Shown: one piece after another, positions 8,581 through 42,609 of the stretch
How the letters are laid out: every line of letters begins with the position of its first letter
Numbering within the stretch: position 1 is the first letter of the stretch
NCBI RefSeq assembly: GCF_900890425.1
Contig: NZ_CAAHFG010000005.1
Coordinates: 62,001-126,000, forward strand
Source of the DNA: Pontiella desulfatans
Lineage (GTDB): Bacteria; Verrucomicrobiota; Kiritimatiellia; Kiritimatiellales; Pontiellaceae
Direction: 5' to 3'
Length of the DNA: 64,000 nt
Translations under genes and position numbers: made by a program
Notes under the pieces: generated by a model
Told to the model about the DNA's origin: nothing
Seen by the model: only the letters and a program-made list of their open reading frames with translations
The model's database searches: none

Positions 8581-8665
8581 TTTGAACCTTTTCTTGTGGC
8601 GCCTGTCGGTCTTGGTTCTGCAAACTGTTGCATCAAGTATGAGCCCGGGACGAAAAGGATAATCA

Positions 8666-8914
8666 ATGCACGGACACGGAAAAGTTCCCATGTTTAGAAT
8701 GAAGCCGAACAAAGGCACCCTCGCGATTGCCATCGTGGTTCTGTTGCTCGGGGTGCTCTTTTTCTTCGAGGGCCACCGCGATCCCGGCGACATCCCGGCC
8801 CATGAGCGGGCCAACCTCTTGCTGGCCATTTCCGTTGTCGTCTCCGGCCTGCTGTTCATCGTCTCCACCGGGCGCATGTGGTTCAAGCACCTGTGGCACG
8901 ACCGCTATCGTTGA
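8666..8914 (+). CDS. Small two-TM membrane protein (paralogue A)
   Basis: 82 residues with two hydrophobic spans at about 18-35 and 49-66 and a short linker rich in charged residues. The N-terminal MFRMKPNKG and the C-terminal LLFIVSTGRMWFKHLW match the other two small proteins (14799 and 18158), which carry MYRxKPN-like starts and LLIVAFARYRFTHLWK ends. The start has AAAAGGA 8 bases upstream. This copy ends at HDRYR and lacks the AAHSDKYK tail of the other two. The function is unknown; it follows a hybrid kinase gene. Confidence 0.8.
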   Translation: MHGHGKVPMFRMKPNKGTLAIAIVVLLLGVLFFFEGHRDPGDIPAHERANLLLAISVVVSGLLFIVSTGRMWFKHLWHDRYR

Positions 8915-8945
8915 GCTTGTGGCTCAGCGGAATGACGAACAGCAA

Positions 8946-8981
8946 AACACCCAATCCCGAATTGAATCGGCATTGGGTGTT
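8946..8981. terminator. Bidirectional terminator hairpin
   Basis: AACACCCAAT pairs perfectly with ATTGGGTGTT, with further inner pairing (CCGA/TCGG). It sits between the convergent small membrane gene and the DUF1080 gene. Confidence 0.7.
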
Positions 8982-9003
8982 TGGGTCTTTCGGGTCTTGA
9001 TTA

Positions 9004-9660
9004 TTATCCCGCCGGCATGGCCTTGATCCGGATGTTGCGGAACTCGATGTTCGCCCGTTCGGCCTGGAGGCAGATGGCGCCTTCCGAAACCGACATGTTC
9101 CAACCCTTGTTGACCAAGGTTCCGTTAACGAATACCTCGACGGTGTTGTCTTTGGCAACAATGCGCATCTGGTTCCATTCGCCCGAAGGCTTTTCGGCGC
9201 CGTCAACCAGGTTGAGCCTGCGGCGGCTGGGCTGGTTGTTCTTGCCCTTGGCAATCTGTTCCGGTTGCACCTCGATCGTCTCGCCAATCACCCAGAAATC
9301 GCCGGCGTTGTCCTTCATCAGCTGCACCTCCATCGATTTCGGCCAGACGCTCATGAGGCGGGGATCGGTGCAGTGGATCAGGCAACCGCTGTTGCCCCCG
9401 GTGTCCGGCCAGCGCCATTGGAATTCCAGTTCATAGTTCGAATAGCTTTTTTCGGTGCGCATCACGCCGTTGGGCTTGCCCTTGCCCATCACGACCACCG
9501 TGTCGTCCTTCACCGACCAGATGGTTTCCGGTGCGGCTTTGTCGAGGGTGTCGAACGTCCATCCGGTGAAATCCTTGCCATTGAAGAGGGGCGTCCACCC
9601 CTCCTCGGCGAAGGCCGCGGTCGCAACACCTAGCAGTAAAACAGTCAATAGCTTTTTCAT
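9004..9660 (-). CDS. Secreted DUF1080 (3-keto-disaccharide hydrolase-like) protein
   Basis: About 218 residues. The signal peptide MKKLLTVLLLGVATAAFA is followed by the concanavalin-like DUF1080 fold: GWTPLFNGKDFTGWTF, YELEFQWRWPDTGGNSG, then MEVQLMKDNAGDF and EWNQMRIVAKDNTVEVFVNG, ending in EFRNIRIK. This family is expanded in PVC bacteria and some members hydrolyse 3-keto-glycosides. ATG 9660 is preferred over 9666 because GGAG then sits 6 bases away. It follows a Gfo/Idh/MocA oxidoreductase by 13 bases, a pairing that fits oxidation to a 3-keto sugar and hydrolysis in the same pathway. Confidence 0.93.
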   Translation of the reverse strand: MKKLLTVLLLGVATAAFAEEGWTPLFNGKDFTGWTFDTLDKAAPETIWSVKDDTVVVMGKGKPNGVMRTEKSYSNYELEFQWRWPDTGGNSGCLIHCTDPRLMSVWPKSMEVQLMKDNAGDFWVIGETIEVQPEQIAKGKNNQPSRRRLNLVDGAEKPSGEWNQMRIVAKDNTVEVFVNGTLVNKGWNMSVSEGAICLQAERANIEFRNIRIKAMPAG

Positions 9661-28975: not shown

Positions 28976-29050
28976 GCCGGCGTAGCTCAGTGGCAGAGCA
29001 ACGGATTTGTAATCCGTTGGTCGTCAGTTCGACTCTGACCGCCGGCTCCA
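28976..29050 (+). tRNA. tRNA-Thr (anticodon UGU)
   Basis: A cloverleaf can be drawn by hand. The acceptor GCCGGCG pairs with CGCCGGC, the D stem is GCTC/GAGC, and the anticodon stem ACGGA/TCCGT encloses loop TTTGTAA (anticodon TGT). The T arm has GTTCGAC, the discriminator is T and CCA is encoded. A plasmid-like island starts immediately downstream, so the 3' end of this gene is the likely attachment site. Confidence 0.97.
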
Positions 29051-35646: not shown

Positions 35647-35764
35647 ATCCATTGCCACATAAGCCTAAAAGGGTATGAGTTGGCCATGCCAAAGGTTAAA
35701 ACAGCTCGAAAAGTGGGAATAAATAATAGATGGGAGGCGGTTGGTTATACAACTGCCCCGACAG

Positions 35765-35793
35765 GCCCTCTGGTTGATGCCAGGGGGCTTTTT
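35765..35793 (+). terminator. Terminator or leader attenuator
   Basis: GCCCTCTGG pairs with CCAGGGGGC (one G-U) over a 6-base loop, followed by TTTTT. It lies 29 bases before the next gene, so it could attenuate it. Confidence 0.7.
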
Positions 35794-36268: not shown

Positions 36269-36291
36269 TTGTCCACCCCAAAACCTAAACC

Positions 36292-36326
36292 AACCCCGTC
36301 GTATCACTGTGATGCGGCGGGGTTTC
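36292..36326 (+). terminator. Hairpin between two island genes
   Basis: AACCCCG/CGGGGTT with further imperfect pairing inside is followed by TCTTTA. A partial terminator is likely. Confidence 0.55.
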
Positions 36327-36346
36327 TTTATGAAAGGAATAATGCA

Positions 36347-37171
36347 ATGAAATTATCGGAATTACGTAAGCGGCCGCACTGGAGCTACAGCTCGCTGAAC
36401 CAGTTGATCAACATCTGTTCACTGGCCTGGAAGTTCCAGAAGGTCGATAAACTGAAACCATCACATACATCAGTGAACCTGGTGGCCGGCAGTGTTTATC
36501 ACCGCACCCTTGAGCAGGTTTATCTCGCACGTAAGAACGGACTGCCCCTCACGATAGATGAGGTGCTGGAGTTGTATACGGAGGACTGGCGTCGATCATC
36601 GAAGGAAGAACTCATTAAATATAAGAAGCTGGATGCCGCAGGCGTCGAAGAACAGGGCCGTGGTCTGGTTAAAGTCGCCTGGGATAATATCGACAATTCA
36701 GAGCGTATTGTAGCCGTTGAGTCGCCGTTCATCGTGCCCATTGAGCATGAGGGAAAGTTCATGTCCAAGCCGTTCATTGGGGCGTGGGACCTGGTCGTTG
36801 AAAAGGACGGGGACATAACCGTGGTGGACCAGAAAACATCGGCCACCCGTTGGAATCCAGCGAAGGCCCATGCATCGATGCAGGGCATAGCGTATTCAAT
36901 GTCGTACAACTTGACTCACGGCATAAACCCTGGTCTGAGGTTCGATATCGCGGTTAAGAACAAAACCCCGGTATTCGAGTCCCATGAAACGGCTCGCACT
37001 CCGGATGACTGGCGGCGGCTGTGCAAGTTGGTGGCTGTGGCGGAAGACATCGTGAAAAATGAAATCTTCTACCCGAATCATGATTCCTTCGCATGCGCTG
37101 ACTGTGGATTCAAAACGGCTTGCAGAGAGTGGAGCTGTGAGAGGCCACTTTCGGACGATCTAGCTGCTTAA
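36347..37171 (+). CDS. RecB/Cas4-like PD-(D/E)XK nuclease
   Basis: About 274 residues. YSSLNQLINICSLAWKFQK is the RecB/Cas4-type opening. The catalytic core is FIGAWDLVVEKDGDITVVDQKTS, with the metal-binding Asp in GAWD and DxK in VDQKT, and the QxxxY-like helix is AHASMQGIAYSMSYN. The C-terminal cysteines CADCGFKTAC and EWSC, with an upstream cysteine, suggest an Fe-S cluster as in Cas4/AddB. Start at ATG 36347 after AAAGGAA. Plasmids and phages use such nucleases for recombination. A decayed copy of its 3' end follows at 37487. Confidence 0.88.
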   Translation: MKLSELRKRPHWSYSSLNQLINICSLAWKFQKVDKLKPSHTSVNLVAGSVYHRTLEQVYLARKNGLPLTIDEVLELYTEDWRRSSKEELIKYKKLDAAGVEEQGRGLVKVAWDNIDNSERIVAVESPFIVPIEHEGKFMSKPFIGAWDLVVEKDGDITVVDQKTSATRWNPAKAHASMQGIAYSMSYNLTHGINPGLRFDIAVKNKTPVFESHETARTPDDWRRLCKLVAVAEDIVKNEIFYPNHDSFACADCGFKTACREWSCERPLSDDLAA

Positions 37172-37225
37172 TAACTTATGCATTCGCAATAAGTTTTTAG
37201 TGGCTTCTTTCGCTGAAGTCGGTGT

Positions 37226-37306
37226 GTAGGTACCGGTATATGGGGGAGATTTCGTGTTCAGAAATACCGCGAACCGGGGTGTAGGCGGCGGCTACACCCC
37301 GGTTAA
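37226..37306 (+). ncRNA. Candidate structured RNA, copy 1
   Basis: Two consecutive hairpins: CGGTAT/ATACCG, then AACCGGGGTGTAG/CTACACCCCGGTT (13 bp perfect, 7-base loop). The strand is inferred from the neighbours. See the diverged copy at 37661, in which the second stem has a different sequence but still pairs. Confidence 0.55.
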
Positions 37307-37486
37307 ATTTGCAAAAACCCCTGTAAAAGCGCGAAAACTACGTTTTTGACGTCCCTTTTCAGTGTCCTTTAACCGCAATTTCCGAATTTGCCGTTAGCCG
37401 CCGACTTCTGCCCGCAAGTCGATCTGCAAGTGCTCAGCAGCCCTTTTCATTCCTCTCTACTGCTTTCAATAAATACAGAGAAAGGA

Positions 37487-37597
37487 ATGAAATGTTTACC
37501 CCAATCATCAGTCCTTCGCCTGCGCCGATTTCGGGGTAAAGCGGCCTGTAGAGAGTGGAGCTGTGAGAGGCCACTTTCGAATGGTCTAACTGCTTAA
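37487..37597 (+). pseudogene. Decayed copy of the nuclease 3' end
   Basis: CAGAGAAAGGAATGAA is followed directly by a sequence matching the last ~100 bases of the nuclease gene (e.g. GAGAGTGGAGCTGTGAGAGG identical). Stop codons interrupt the frame (TAA after 15 codons, TAG later). It is part of the tandem duplication and not a functional gene. Confidence 0.75.
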
Positions 37598-37660
37598 AAA
37601 CTTATTTTTTAAAAATAAGATTATAAGCAGTTACCGTTCAAGTGGTGCTGAACTATGGTC

Positions 37661-37740
37661 GTAGGTACCGGTATATGGGGGAGATTTCATGTTCAGAAAT
37701 ACCGTGAACCGGGTTGCAGATTGCATTTGCAACCCGGTTC
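37661..37740 (+). ncRNA. Candidate structured RNA, copy 2
   Basis: The same leader GTAGGTACCGGTATATGGGG and CGGTAT/ATACCG stem as copy 1, then GAACCGGGTTGCA/TGCAACCCGGTTC (13 bp perfect, 9-base loop). The stem bases changed on both sides together relative to copy 1. Confidence 0.55.
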
Positions 37741-37938
37741 TTGTGCGTAAACCTTAGTAAAAACGCATAAATCACAATTCCAGCCCTCCGATTGGAAGTG
37801 TATTCACCGCACTTCATAATTTCCAGCGCGCGGCCCGTTTTCGACAGCAATGCGATCTGCGAGCCGTCTGACTTACTTCTATACCGCCTTCATTTCTTTA
37901 CCAACCGCTTTCAATAAACACAGAGAAAGGAATGAACG

Positions 37939-38367
37939 ATGGTACTTACATTACAAACAGAATTAGCCGTTCGGGAAACAACCGAGTACGGACCGAAGTT
38001 AATAAAGCCTGACGACGTCGCCGAATACCTCCGGGACATGAAACTCATGACGCAGGAGGCTTTCGTTGTTATCGGATTGAATGCCAAGAACTGCGTTATC
38101 AATAAGCACCTGGTCAGCATCGGTACGGTCAGCTCGACCTTGGTTCATCCTCGCGAGTGCTTCAAGCCCGTGCTGCTGGACTGTGCGTCATCCGTGATAT
38201 TGGCACATAACCATCCGTCTGGAGATCCAACACCATCGGCGGAGGATATCAAGATAACCCGGCAACTGGTGTCAGCAGGTGAGGTTCTCGGGATCCGAGT
38301 TTTGGATCACGTCATCCTGGGGTCTGACCACCTGAGCCTCAAGGAAGCAGGCTTGGTCAAGTTCTGA
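37939..38367 (+). CDS. RadC-like JAB-domain protein
   Basis: 142 residues. The JAB/MPN metallo-core is LAHNHPSGDPTPSAEDIKIT, with the HxHPS-x-D zinc motif. MTQEAFVVIGLNAKNCVINK and VSIGTVSSTLVHPRE complete the family. It lacks the N-terminal HhH part of chromosomal RadC, as usual for plasmid and phage versions. AAAGGAATGAACG precedes the ATG at 37939 and is supplied by unit 2 of the duplication. The function is unresolved; often linked to anti-restriction gene sets. Confidence 0.95.
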   Translation: MVLTLQTELAVRETTEYGPKLIKPDDVAEYLRDMKLMTQEAFVVIGLNAKNCVINKHLVSIGTVSSTLVHPRECFKPVLLDCASSVILAHNHPSGDPTPSAEDIKITRQLVSAGEVLGIRVLDHVILGSDHLSLKEAGLVKF

Positions 38368-38404
38368 GCCGGTTTTGGAACACTGTGCCAAACAATAAAG
38401 GCAT

Positions 38405-38528
38405 CGGAGCCGCATCCTTCACCGGGTGCGGCTCCGGTGCGTTGCCCTTTTCACAATTGCACCGCCAAGCGTCACCACCGGGTGACACGAAGACGCCGGA
38501 GGCCGTCCCCGTTGGAGGGGCGGCCTCC
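38405..38528 (+). other. Three successive hairpins before ardC
   Basis: CGGAGCCGCA/TGCGGCTCCG (38405-38436), GTCACC/GGTGAC (38471-38486) and GGAGGCCG/CGGCCTCC with an inner CCCC/GGGG (38498-38528). The last ends in CTTCATTTTAAC and could terminate radC or control ardC. Confidence 0.6.
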
Positions 38529-38562
38529 TTCATTTTAACTAAACCCAGAAAGGAGACATGCC

Positions 38563-39183
38563 ATGAGTGCATATCAAAAGATTAATGAAATGATCACCGC
38601 CCGACTCATAGAGCGGGTGGAAGCAAGCAGCGGTGAGTTACCGTGGAAGAAACCGTGGACATCATTCTCGTTGATGCCCCGGAACCTCATCTCAAAGAAG
38701 CCGTATCGCGGTGTAAATGTGTTTTTGTTGCACATGTTGGGGTACGCCAGCCCGTACTTCCTGAGTTTTAAGCAGGTTACGGCATTGGGGGGAGCTGTCC
38801 GCAAGGGTGAAAAATCCTGCCCAGTCGTGTTCTGGCGCTTTGTGGATTCGAAGGAGGATGATTCCGAGGCGAAAGGCTATGCGATGTTGAGGTACTACCG
38901 CGTGTTCAACGTTGAGCAATGTGATGGGCTACCGGAGAGTAAGGTGCCCGTGGTTGAAATACCAAAACGGGAACATACGCCGTTGGAGATCGCGGAGCAG
39001 TTGGTGGCTTCGATGCCCGACTGTCCGGTAATCAAACACGGCTGCAGGCAGGCATCGTATTCCCCGGCATTGGACCGAGTCGCTATGCCTGATCCGGAAG
39101 TATTCCATTCGGGGGAGTCGTACTATGCTGCGCTATTCCATGAGCTGGCGCATTATGCCGACACTGGGATTATGCCGAATTGA
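38563..39183 (+). pseudogene. ardC: ardC antirestriction gene, 5' part (interrupted)
   Basis: Residues 1-197 are the ArdC/DUF1738 family: N-terminal ssDNA-binding region (YQKINEMITARLIERVEASSG, PWKKPWTSF, YRGVNVFLLHMLGYASPYF, VFWRF, YRVFNVEQCDGLP) and the start of the zinc-metallopeptidase motif YYAALFHELAH. After HELAH the frame enters the inserted element and stops 9 residues later. The rest of the motif and C-domain lie at 42606-42911. The joined protein would be about 297 residues, the normal ArdC length. ATG 38563 follows AAAGGAG. Confidence 0.93.
39147..39177. repeat. RIT left inverted repeat
   Basis: 31 bp beginning GGCGCATTATGCCGACACTG. A subterminal partner (TTATGCCGAATtgAGTTTC versus the reverse complement of 39209-39235) forms a further imperfect hairpin inside the left end. 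Confidence 0.88.
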
Positions 39184-39309
39184 GTTTCAATGGAATTGAT
39201 TGCCGGGTGAATTCGAGAAACTGATTCGGCATAACATTGCAAGAATCGATCTTGCAAGATGTTGTGTTTTGTTTCCGATTTGCTCCTTAACAACGATAAG
39301 GAGCAACAA

Positions 39310-40557
39310 ATGAATACGCATCAACAAACAACGAATGAAGCCCATGTAACCGCCCGCGAACTGTTCGGGGAGCACGTGTCCTCCTTCCGGCAATATCTTG
39401 TCGGCCACAACTATGTGACCAATACTGTCCAGCAATACATGCGGTGCGTGGGGGCTCTTGCGGCGACCATGAAAGCAGACGGAATCGCCGTCGGGGAGTT
39501 GAACGAGGCATTGGTTCTGGATCTTGTGGACAGGCAGGGATGGCCCGAAGGACGTCACTACTACGCCGTCACGATCGCAAAGCGCTTTGTTCGCTTCCTG
39601 CATGACCGGGGAGTGGGACAGCTTCCACCTCCCCCGACGGAGAAGGAAATCGCAAGAAAGGAACTGCGTAAGGAATACGAATCCTACCTGCGCCGACAAC
39701 GCGGATTGAGTGAAAGTACGATCTTTGGTTGCTGGCACCAGGCAAACCGTTTTCTTGAATACCGCTTCGGTGAAGAGGCTGGAGACCTTTCAAAAATCAC
39801 GGCGACCGACATCATTGACTTCCTCCAGCATGTAACCGGCAGAAAACCGCCGGTACGGAATAAGACGGTTTCCACTCACCTGAGGAGCTTCTTTCGCTTC
39901 CTGTTCCAGACCAAGCGAAACGGGGCCAACCTCGCCAAGGGCATTCCAAGCGTGGCCCAGTGCTACGGGAAACGGTTGCCCGTGCATCTGACTTCCGAAC
40001 AAACCGAAGTCCTGGTCGATGCGGTTCGTGGCAATAAACCTACGAGTCGACGGAACCATGCGATGGTGCTGCTGCTCGCCCGGCTCGGGTTGCGTCCACA
40101 GGAGGTGATCCGTATTCAAGTCGATGATATCGACTGGAGGGCCGGTGAGATCGTCATCAGGGGCAAGGGCGGTCGGCATGACCGGCTTCCCCTTCCGACC
40201 GACGTGGGCGAAGCCATTGTGGAGTACATCCGGAACGACCGGGTCACGGAGTCGAGAACGCTCTTCGTGTCGAACCACGCGCCGCACAAGCCATTCAAAA
40301 ACGCCGAGGTACTGAATACGGTTCTTGTGAAAGCGTTCGCGAAAAGCGGACTGACGCCGCCAATACCGTATACCTGTACGCACATACTGCGGCATAGCCT
40401 GGCGACCAACCTCGTGCGGCAGGGCGCATCACTCGACGAGGTCAGCAACCTGCTTCGCCACCGGAGCCAGACAACAACCATGCTCTATGCGCGGATGGAT
40501 GTGGACGGCCTGCGATCAATCGCCTTGCCTTGGCCCGGAGAAGGAGGTGCCCAATGA
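39310..40557 (+). CDS. RIT tyrosine recombinase A
   Basis: About 415 residues. The N-terminal SAM-like core-binding domain has an extension of about 100 residues. Catalytic residues are in LLARLGLRPQEVIRI (Arg I), IRGKGGRHDRLP (Lys), HILRHSLATNLV (HxxR), LLRHRSQTTTMLYARMD (His and Tyr). ATG 39310 has AAGGAG; the upstream in-frame ATG lies in the left-end repeats. It overlaps the second gene by ATGA. Confidence 0.93.
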   Translation: MNTHQQTTNEAHVTARELFGEHVSSFRQYLVGHNYVTNTVQQYMRCVGALAATMKADGIAVGELNEALVLDLVDRQGWPEGRHYYAVTIAKRFVRFLHDRGVGQLPPPPTEKEIARKELRKEYESYLRRQRGLSESTIFGCWHQANRFLEYRFGEEAGDLSKITATDIIDFLQHVTGRKPPVRNKTVSTHLRSFFRFLFQTKRNGANLAKGIPSVAQCYGKRLPVHLTSEQTEVLVDAVRGNKPTSRRNHAMVLLLARLGLRPQEVIRIQVDDIDWRAGEIVIRGKGGRHDRLPLPTDVGEAIVEYIRNDRVTESRTLFVSNHAPHKPFKNAEVLNTVLVKAFAKSGLTPPIPYTCTHILRHSLATNLVRQGASLDEVSNLLRHRSQTTTMLYARMDVDGLRSIALPWPGEGGAQ

Positions 40558-41501
40558 AAACCTTGAATAGAGAGCTTGAGCGCTACCTGTCCATCCGGCG
40601 AGGCCTTGGGTATAAACTGAATACGGATGAACGAATCCTTCGCAGGTTCATCGAGTTCATGGAGCAGGAAGAAGCGGCGCACATCAGCACCGGCTGTTTC
40701 CTTCGCTGGAAGGAGGCATTCGGGCATGCAAACACGCAAACCTGGTCGAGACGACTGACAGTGGTCAGAATCTTCGCCCAGTGGATGCACGGCATCGACC
40801 CCCGCCACGAAGTGCCGCCGCAATCACTGATACCCGGCCATGTCCGCCGCTCCCGGCCTTACATCTACAGCGAAGAGGAAATCAAGATGATCGTTGAAGC
40901 CGCAGCGGAGCTTCCTTCCCGCAACGGCATCCGTCCGCTGACCTACTCGACGTTCTTCGGACTCATCGCCGTTACCGGCATGAGAATCAGCGAAGCCGTT
41001 TCGCTCAATGTTGCCGATGTCGATCTCGAGAATGGAGTCGTTGCCGTACGAAAAGGAAAGCTGGGCAAGGAACGCTTGCTGCCGGTCTCTACGGATACAG
41101 CGGAACGGCTGGTTGCCTATGCCGTCGAAAGGGATCGGCTAAACGAATCGACACCCTCGGCATTCTTTATCTCGGATCATGGGGAACGGCTGGACGCCTG
41201 CGCCGCCCGCTACAACTTCGCCATCGTATGTCAGCGTGTCGGGCTGCGACCGGTTCAGAAGTTTTTCCGGCACGGGCGCGGGCCGCGCATCCATGACCTG
41301 CGGCATACTTTCGCCGTCCGCACGATGCTCAACTGGTACCGGGATGGAAAGGATCCGGCCCAGGAAATGATCAAGCTCGTCACCTACCTCGGGCATGAAA
41401 AGCCCGCACACACCTACTGGTACATCGAGGCGGCTCCTGAACTGCTAGAACTGGCGTCCCGCCGTGCGGAAGAATCCGCAGCAAGGGAGGTGGAATCATG
41501 A
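40554..41501 (+). CDS. RIT tyrosine recombinase B
   Basis: About 315 residues. An SAM-like N-domain (LERYLSIRRGLGYKLNTDERI) is followed by the catalytic domain with AVTGMRISEAVSLNV (Arg), VRKGKLGKERLLP (Lys), IHDLRHTFAVRTM (HxxR), YLGHEKPAHTYWYIEA (His and Tyr). All catalytic residues are present. The start overlaps gene A by ATGA and the end overlaps gene C likewise. Confidence 0.93.
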   Translation: MKTLNRELERYLSIRRGLGYKLNTDERILRRFIEFMEQEEAAHISTGCFLRWKEAFGHANTQTWSRRLTVVRIFAQWMHGIDPRHEVPPQSLIPGHVRRSRPYIYSEEEIKMIVEAAAELPSRNGIRPLTYSTFFGLIAVTGMRISEAVSLNVADVDLENGVVAVRKGKLGKERLLPVSTDTAERLVAYAVERDRLNESTPSAFFISDHGERLDACAARYNFAIVCQRVGLRPVQKFFRHGRGPRIHDLRHTFAVRTMLNWYRDGKDPAQEMIKLVTYLGHEKPAHTYWYIEAAPELLELASRRAEESAAREVES

Positions 41502-42493
41502 ACGCGCTGACACTACCCGCTCTGGTTCAACTGTTCTTCACCGACCGGCTCACCATCCAGATAAACGCAAGTCCCAATACGATCGCCAGCTACCGGGATA
41601 CCTTCCGCCTGCTGTTGCGCTTTGCCGGGGAACAACACGGCAAGGTGCCGACGAAACTCCGGGTCGAAGATCTGGATACCGAACTGGTGGGCGACTTCCT
41701 CGCCTATGTTGAGAACAAGCGCCGCAACTGCGCCCGCAGCCGCAATGCCCGGTTGGCCGCCATCCGGTCCTTCTTCAAATTCGTGGCCATGACCGAACCG
41801 GCATACCTGCTCCAATGCCAGCGAATACTGTCCATGCCCAGCAAGCGCCATGAGCAACGTACAGTGGAGTTTTTGGACCGCCGGGAAATGGATGCGCTGC
41901 TGTCTGCGCCGGACCGGTCCACATGGATCGGGCAACGCGATCATGCCATCCTGACACTGGCACTGCAAACCGGACTTCGAGCATCGGAGCTAATCAACCT
42001 ATGCCAATGCGATCTCATTGCCGGAACTGGTGCGCATGTCCAGTGTATGGGTAAAGGTCGAAAACAGCGCCTCACGCCTCTCAGGAAAGAAACCCTTTTG
42101 GTCATGAAGAACTGGCTTCGGCGGTATGGCGGAACTGAAGACGGGCCGCTCTTTCCAACCATCAGGGGAGGGAAACTCAGTCGAGACGCCCTGGAACATC
42201 TTGTGCGAAAGCATACGCTCACGGCTTCGAAAACCTGCCCCTCGCTGGCGACCAAGCGGGTGAGTCCGCATGTGCTTCGGCACAGCACCGCCATGGAGTT
42301 GCTGCACCACGGGGTGGATCAAACCGTTATCTCGCTATGGCTTGGCCATGAATCCGTTGAAACAACGAGAATCTACCTGCACGCCGATCTGCACCTTAAG
42401 GAAAAGGCGTTGGAAAAAGTGATGGCAACGGCCTCGAAACCAGGGCGGTATCTCCCCGCTGACAAGCTACTCGCCTTCCTCGAAGGCCTATAA
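41498..42493 (+). CDS. RIT tyrosine recombinase C
   Basis: 331 residues, XerC-like. ASPNTIASYRDTFRLLLRFA is the SAM-like domain. Catalytic motifs are ALQTGLRASELINL (Arg), CMGKGRKQRLTPL (Lys), SPHVLRHSTAMELL (HxxR), WLGHESVETTRIYLHAD (His and Tyr). It ends just before the structured right end of the element. Confidence 0.93.
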   Translation: MNALTLPALVQLFFTDRLTIQINASPNTIASYRDTFRLLLRFAGEQHGKVPTKLRVEDLDTELVGDFLAYVENKRRNCARSRNARLAAIRSFFKFVAMTEPAYLLQCQRILSMPSKRHEQRTVEFLDRREMDALLSAPDRSTWIGQRDHAILTLALQTGLRASELINLCQCDLIAGTGAHVQCMGKGRKQRLTPLRKETLLVMKNWLRRYGGTEDGPLFPTIRGGKLSRDALEHLVRKHTLTASKTCPSLATKRVSPHVLRHSTAMELLHHGVDQTVISLWLGHESVETTRIYLHADLHLKEKALEKVMATASKPGRYLPADKLLAFLEGL

Positions 42494-42550
42494 TTATGCC
42501 TAATGGCCGTACCGAACACCCTTTGACTGCAAGGGTGAAATCATTCGGTA

Positions 42551-42609
42551 CGGCATAATCCCAGTGTCGGCATAATGCGCCTTATGCCGATATCGGCATA
42601 AGGCGCATT
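42551..42609. repeat. RIT right end: inverted repeat and 36-bp perfect palindrome
   Basis: 42551-42581 is the inverted copy of the left end. 42574-42609 is a perfect palindrome (AATGCGCC, TTATGCCGATATCGGCATAA, GGCGCATT) whose last 8 bases are the second GGCGCATT. An extra nested stem (GCCGTACCGA/TCGGTACGGC) lies just inside, at about 42508-42554. Confidence 0.88.

Follow-up and report, generated by a model that had tools for sequence, protein, structure and literature searches.

The STAXI motif is a pseudoknot that is repeated two or three times and is found near antirestriction and integrase genes (PMC2864571). The element described here, which lies in a 64,000-nucleotide stretch of a Pontiella desulfatans contig (the window), resembles STAXI in being a structured element in tandem and in having a similar gene setting, the choice between RNA and DNA being undecided for both, but it differs in being built of plain hairpins that recur about 435 nt apart. 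Tandem units are present as in STAXI and no pseudoknot appeared, the folding tools used being unable to model pseudoknots, and the STAXI Rfam model gave no match in searches of the window. A further likeness is to the radC RNA motif (RF01754), also a candidate structured RNA, as radC here follows directly downstream. The presumed location of that motif is in the 5' UTRs of DNA-handling genes. However, it is listed as proteobacterial, unlike the present locus, and its covariance model, run with cmscan at the gathering score and at E<=5, found no match. Since membership failed for both of these Rfam families, we class the duplicated hairpin element as an orphan, a modest but genuine candidate of their general type.

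Comparison with two other types of structure is also informative. The put RNA of HK022 is about 70 nt long and has two adjoining stem-loops, with internal non-canonical pairs and a triplex (PMC9378689); hairpins P1 and P2 of our element likewise form two stem-loops within 71 nt, a likeness of predicted shape only. Intrinsic terminators are resembled in that P2 is a GC-rich, perfect, intergenic hairpin, the difference being that no T-run follows either copy, so that P2 in neither case has the GC hairpin with trailing T-run of an intrinsic terminator. The first-pass annotation had made this point for both hairpins, and indeed the terminator scan left both unflagged.

Duplicated units and their predicted hairpins

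The locus is situated in a mobile island and consists of a tandem pair of diverged units of 434 and 445 nt. The duplicated sequence comprises the 3'-terminal part of a PD-(D/E)XK nuclease gene, the intergenic stretch after it and the ribosome-binding block in front of radC. Along the + strand, the nuclease gene (PF12705) is followed by copy 1, by the nuclease fragment together with copy 2, and then by radC (PF04002) and ardC. The nuclease gene likely starts at 36347 within its frame, and its final codons share nucleotides with hairpins PA and PB. A tandem duplication had been proposed at 37057-37936 by the first-pass annotation, and we find its sequence, coordinates and repeat structure confirmed (units at 37058-37936 by pairwise alignment). 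The 20-nt leader shared by the copies occurs exactly twice in the window, the chance expectation being 0.

Coordinates of the duplicated units, their predicted hairpins and the flanking genes
Feature	Position	Strand	Description or basis
PD-(D/E)XK nuclease (Cas4/RecB-like) gene	36269..37171	+	Pfam PF12705, 4.5e-21; phage exonuclease PHROGs
Unit copy 1	37058..37491	+	Nuclease 3' end, hairpins, ribosome-binding block; pairwise alignment
Unit copy 2	37492..37936	+	Nuclease part a fragment only; pairwise alignment
Hairpin PA copy 1	37125..37152	+	GAGAGTGG/CCACTTTC; within nuclease codons
Hairpin PA copy 2	37551..37578	+	Sequence identical to PA of copy 1
Hairpin PB copy 1	37162..37205	+	AT-rich, outer arms AGCTGCT/AGTGGCT; fold
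Hairpin PB copy 2	37588..37632	+	Outer arms AACTGCTTA/TAAGCAGTT; fold, also detected as inverted repeat
Leader/P1/P2 element copy 1	37222-37309		
Leader/P1/P2 element copy 2	37657-37744		
Hairpin P1 copy 1	37234..37269	+	CGGTA/TACCG, G-rich bulge, inner TTTC/GAAA stem; nearly invariant sequence
Hairpin P1 copy 2	37669..37704	+	
Hairpin P2 copy 1	37272..37304	+	13 perfect pairs
Hairpin P2 copy 2	37707..37739	+	13 pairs, extending to 37706-37740
Short radC-like gene (JAB domain)	37939..38367	+	Downstream of units; Pfam PF04002, 1.7e-41

The four hairpins differ in how they have changed between the copies. PB straddles the nuclease stop codon and folds in both, with one extra double change (AGC/GCT to AAC/GTT, by a hand count of the two folds); the minimum-energy fold of unit copy 2 alone pairs PA with other partners. 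None of the base pairs of P1 differ, and P2 follows P1 after 2 nt in each copy. The P2 stems, AACCGGGGTGTAG/CTACACCCCGGTT and AACCGGGTTGCAG/TTGCAACCCGGTT, are both completely paired: 2 of the 13 pairs are altered on both sides (G-C to U-A and U-A to C-G), one has changed on one side only (G-C to G-U) and none is broken. In the formal count, the double-sided changes are confined to P2. The earlier claim of differing 13-bp stems, each perfectly paired with itself, is thus confirmed by pairwise comparison; of the positions given for P2 the stems were correct, while the frame of copy 2 was off by one. We have also considered a third hairpin 3' of P2, for which consensus folding gave no support, the stretch downstream of P2 being without a consensus fold, and a short leader peptide in P1 (MGEISCSEIP...), for which the copies agree for ten codons at most.

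Probable structural constraint and the search for relatives

We have analysed whether the pattern of change exceeds what an unconstrained hairpin would show. In a simulation, five random substitutions in a P2-like stem left full pairing intact with a probability of 0.0017. Consensus folding of the 90-column element surpassed column shuffles with z of -6.5 on the + strand and -6.2 on the - strand, and for the longer unit the values were -5.6 and -3.7, the advantage over shuffles for the whole unit being greater on the + strand, on which the G-U pairs also lie. Scores of this size (z about -6) make structural constraint likely. A pair-shuffling control, which with two sequences is almost powerless, gave equally good results in 119 of 500 shuffles. 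Conservation along the unit is uneven: leader plus P1 are identical at 44/46 positions (96%) and the PA block at 31/32 (97%), as against 23/33 in P2, 33/50 in PB, 93/144 (65%) downstream and 43/56 (77%) in the pseudo-coding nuclease fragment. The excess in P1 is pronounced with respect to the downstream stretch (Fisher p 1e-5), and with respect to the nuclease fragment the values are p 0.010 for P1 and 0.015 for PA. These conservation and folding tests compare a single pair of sequences from one duplication in one genome, so that the constraint is one seen within the locus and not across a family.

The conservation of P1 and PA above their flanks, the compensatory changes and the + strand G-U pairs are best explained by selection on a folded structure, and a constraint on the structure of the duplicated element is therefore likely as judged from the two copies. 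This sustains in part the earlier suggestion of selection on RNA or DNA structure, in that the signals of constraint are present; independent covariation did not emerge.

The covariance search that the first-pass annotation had proposed returned no homologue. The model built from the two copies found nothing in the organism's own genome beyond the duplicated locus and nothing at E 0.01 outside it in 97 relatives, 346 genomes of the class and 388 of the phylum, sets which overlap; with filters off, it gave no convincing match in the sister islands. The lack of homologues accounts for the absence of independent covariation and leaves the comparison with homologues that have not kept the stem with nothing to compare. 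BLASTN of the 97 relatives, phages and plasmids gave noise only, the exact cores of the element are absent from the viral and genome contigs searched, and Rfam at gathering and relaxed thresholds gave no match to the element: it returned a tRNA, some microRNA-like matches to the AT-rich PB that are due to chance and, below threshold, a single sRNA hit across the terminators at 38395-38534. Being the sole locus in the genome, the element is also without the many dispersed copies of REP or MITE-type repeats. A few weak candidates were discarded: a match in L041 inside a pilin-like coding sequence and one in L043 antisense to a murD-like gene, both due to chance; matches in L097 to a hairpin beside a tRNA fragment and to a terminator; and a resemblance of the P1 core to sister island L032 (21/29 bases, hand count), inside the shuffle range.

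The island and the slot before radC

Besides the radC of the window, the genome has six further short radC genes (E 1e-46 or better), several of the seven being preceded by the same nuclease in paralogous islands, which suggests repeated acquisition of one mobile-island family. The duplicated element is absent from sister islands that carry the same genes. Indeed, different islands occupy the slot between nuclease and radC with different hairpin elements: a single terminator-like hairpin in L034 and L036 and, in other genomes, in L028 and L026, and, in L024 and L082 of a neighbour genome, a long hairpin of another kind. L037, L038 and L097 (at 8600-9054) have in common a leader of about 400 nt before radC, with terminator-like hairpins; its identity is 84% between L038 and L097 and 56-58% between L037 and both, and no conserved fold is seen for L037 and L038 (z -1.0). 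As in L097 this leader comes after a different gene, it may move with radC. The slot is thus variable yet usually filled by something that folds, which weakly supports a leader role for the element of the window.

A GC-rich hairpin with a T-run is found 18-38 nt before the start codons of many island genes. The scan for this pattern counted 1-4 per island in 7 of 8 island stretches, the G021 stretch being the exception with 0, and gave no case before genes in the 47.5 kb of chromosomal control sequence from the window. Examples lie at 35763-35790, 36292-36324 and 38498-38528, and also in L093, L094, L095, L077, L079 and L097; the first two fit the pattern and were missed by the start-site rule of the scan. 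Given the little room for a promoter after such hairpins, either transcription reads through them or they are not terminators in the cell.

Tyrosine recombinase genes at 39259-40557, 40530-41501 and 41498-42493 lie three in a row and form a Recombinases-In-Trio (RIT) element (39150-42600), inserted in ardC, whose C-terminal part resumes beyond it. It has perfect 28-bp inverted terminal repeats (GCATTATGCCGACACTGGGATTATGCCG) and a 36-bp palindrome at its right end, and its ends agree with the published description (PMC3414803). A tRNA-Thr gene (28976-29050) stands at the left edge of the island, and a matching tRNA-Thr 3' fragment (L097:6347-6374), near 161.3 kb of the same contig and about 70 kb away, stands where a second such island begins; the intervening DNA, with sulfatase and fucosidase genes, may be flanked by attachment-site repeats.

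Possible origins and roles of the element

The explanation that we favour, tentatively and at a probability somewhat short of even, is that of a cis-acting element, structured and duplicated in tandem, within the nuclease-radC transcript and most likely working as RNA. We observe that the unit is duplicated, that hairpins are predicted in it, that stem changes compensate each other and that conservation is uneven; transcription, action as RNA and radC as the target are what we infer. The element would begin in the last codons of the nuclease, with PA, PB, P1 and P2 in each copy, and would act as RNA in the radC leader or in the tail of the nuclease message, where, through attenuation, processing or stability, it would determine the amount of transcript that extends into radC or persists there. 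The promoter scan gave no convincing candidate for the element itself, with one site against a higher number expected by chance, in keeping with transcription that continues from the nuclease gene. Against this explanation count the single duplication in one genome, the want of homologues, the sister islands that do without the element and the lack of a conserved fold in the leader of L037 and L038.

Paired changes can, however, arise in the absence of selection, as a template switch between the arms of an inverted repeat during replication copies changes from one arm to the other and so keeps the stem perfect, a documented origin of such stems and of paired changes (PMC8794818). The confinement of the double-sided changes to P2 in the formal count and the perfect hairpins with short loops favour mutational upkeep of this kind, but it leaves unexplained why leader, P1 and PA are 96-97% identical against 65% in the flanks, and how a G-C pair became G-U; we hold it to be unlikely. 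Rather improbable, too, is a role at the DNA level, with the hairpins serving in single-stranded DNA as a signal for the island's primase, for replication or for transfer. Tandem repeats are common at primase, replication and transfer sites, the island encodes primase/helicase-like proteins in addition to the ArdC and RadC genes, folding of the 90-column element scores about equally on both strands, and a repeated binding site could be present in the conserved block GTAGGTACCGGTATATGGGG; against this, sister islands with the same genes are without the element, words of that block are found nowhere else in the island, and the G-U pairs favour RNA.

The terminator-like hairpins of the islands bear on two additional readings. 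P2 could be a relic of one of them, its T-run gone, that today does no more than mark or protect the end of the nuclease mRNA, as such hairpins precede many island genes and no chromosomal control gene and occupy the same slot in L034, L036, L028 and L026; perfect pairing in both copies and an invariant P1 are unexpected for a relic, making this quite doubtful. Conversely, hairpins that may need read-through make an antitermination role of P1 and P2 thinkable, and a read-through signal could serve the many hairpins of the island, but that P1+P2, present in tandem, is a self-acting, put-like RNA in a Kiritimatiellota island is very improbable.

If the element is real, it would add a structured element not described before, from a phylum that has received little study. 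Captured after it had duplicated locally, it would offer in its two copies a natural experiment, on a small scale, that tells constrained bases and pairs from free ones.
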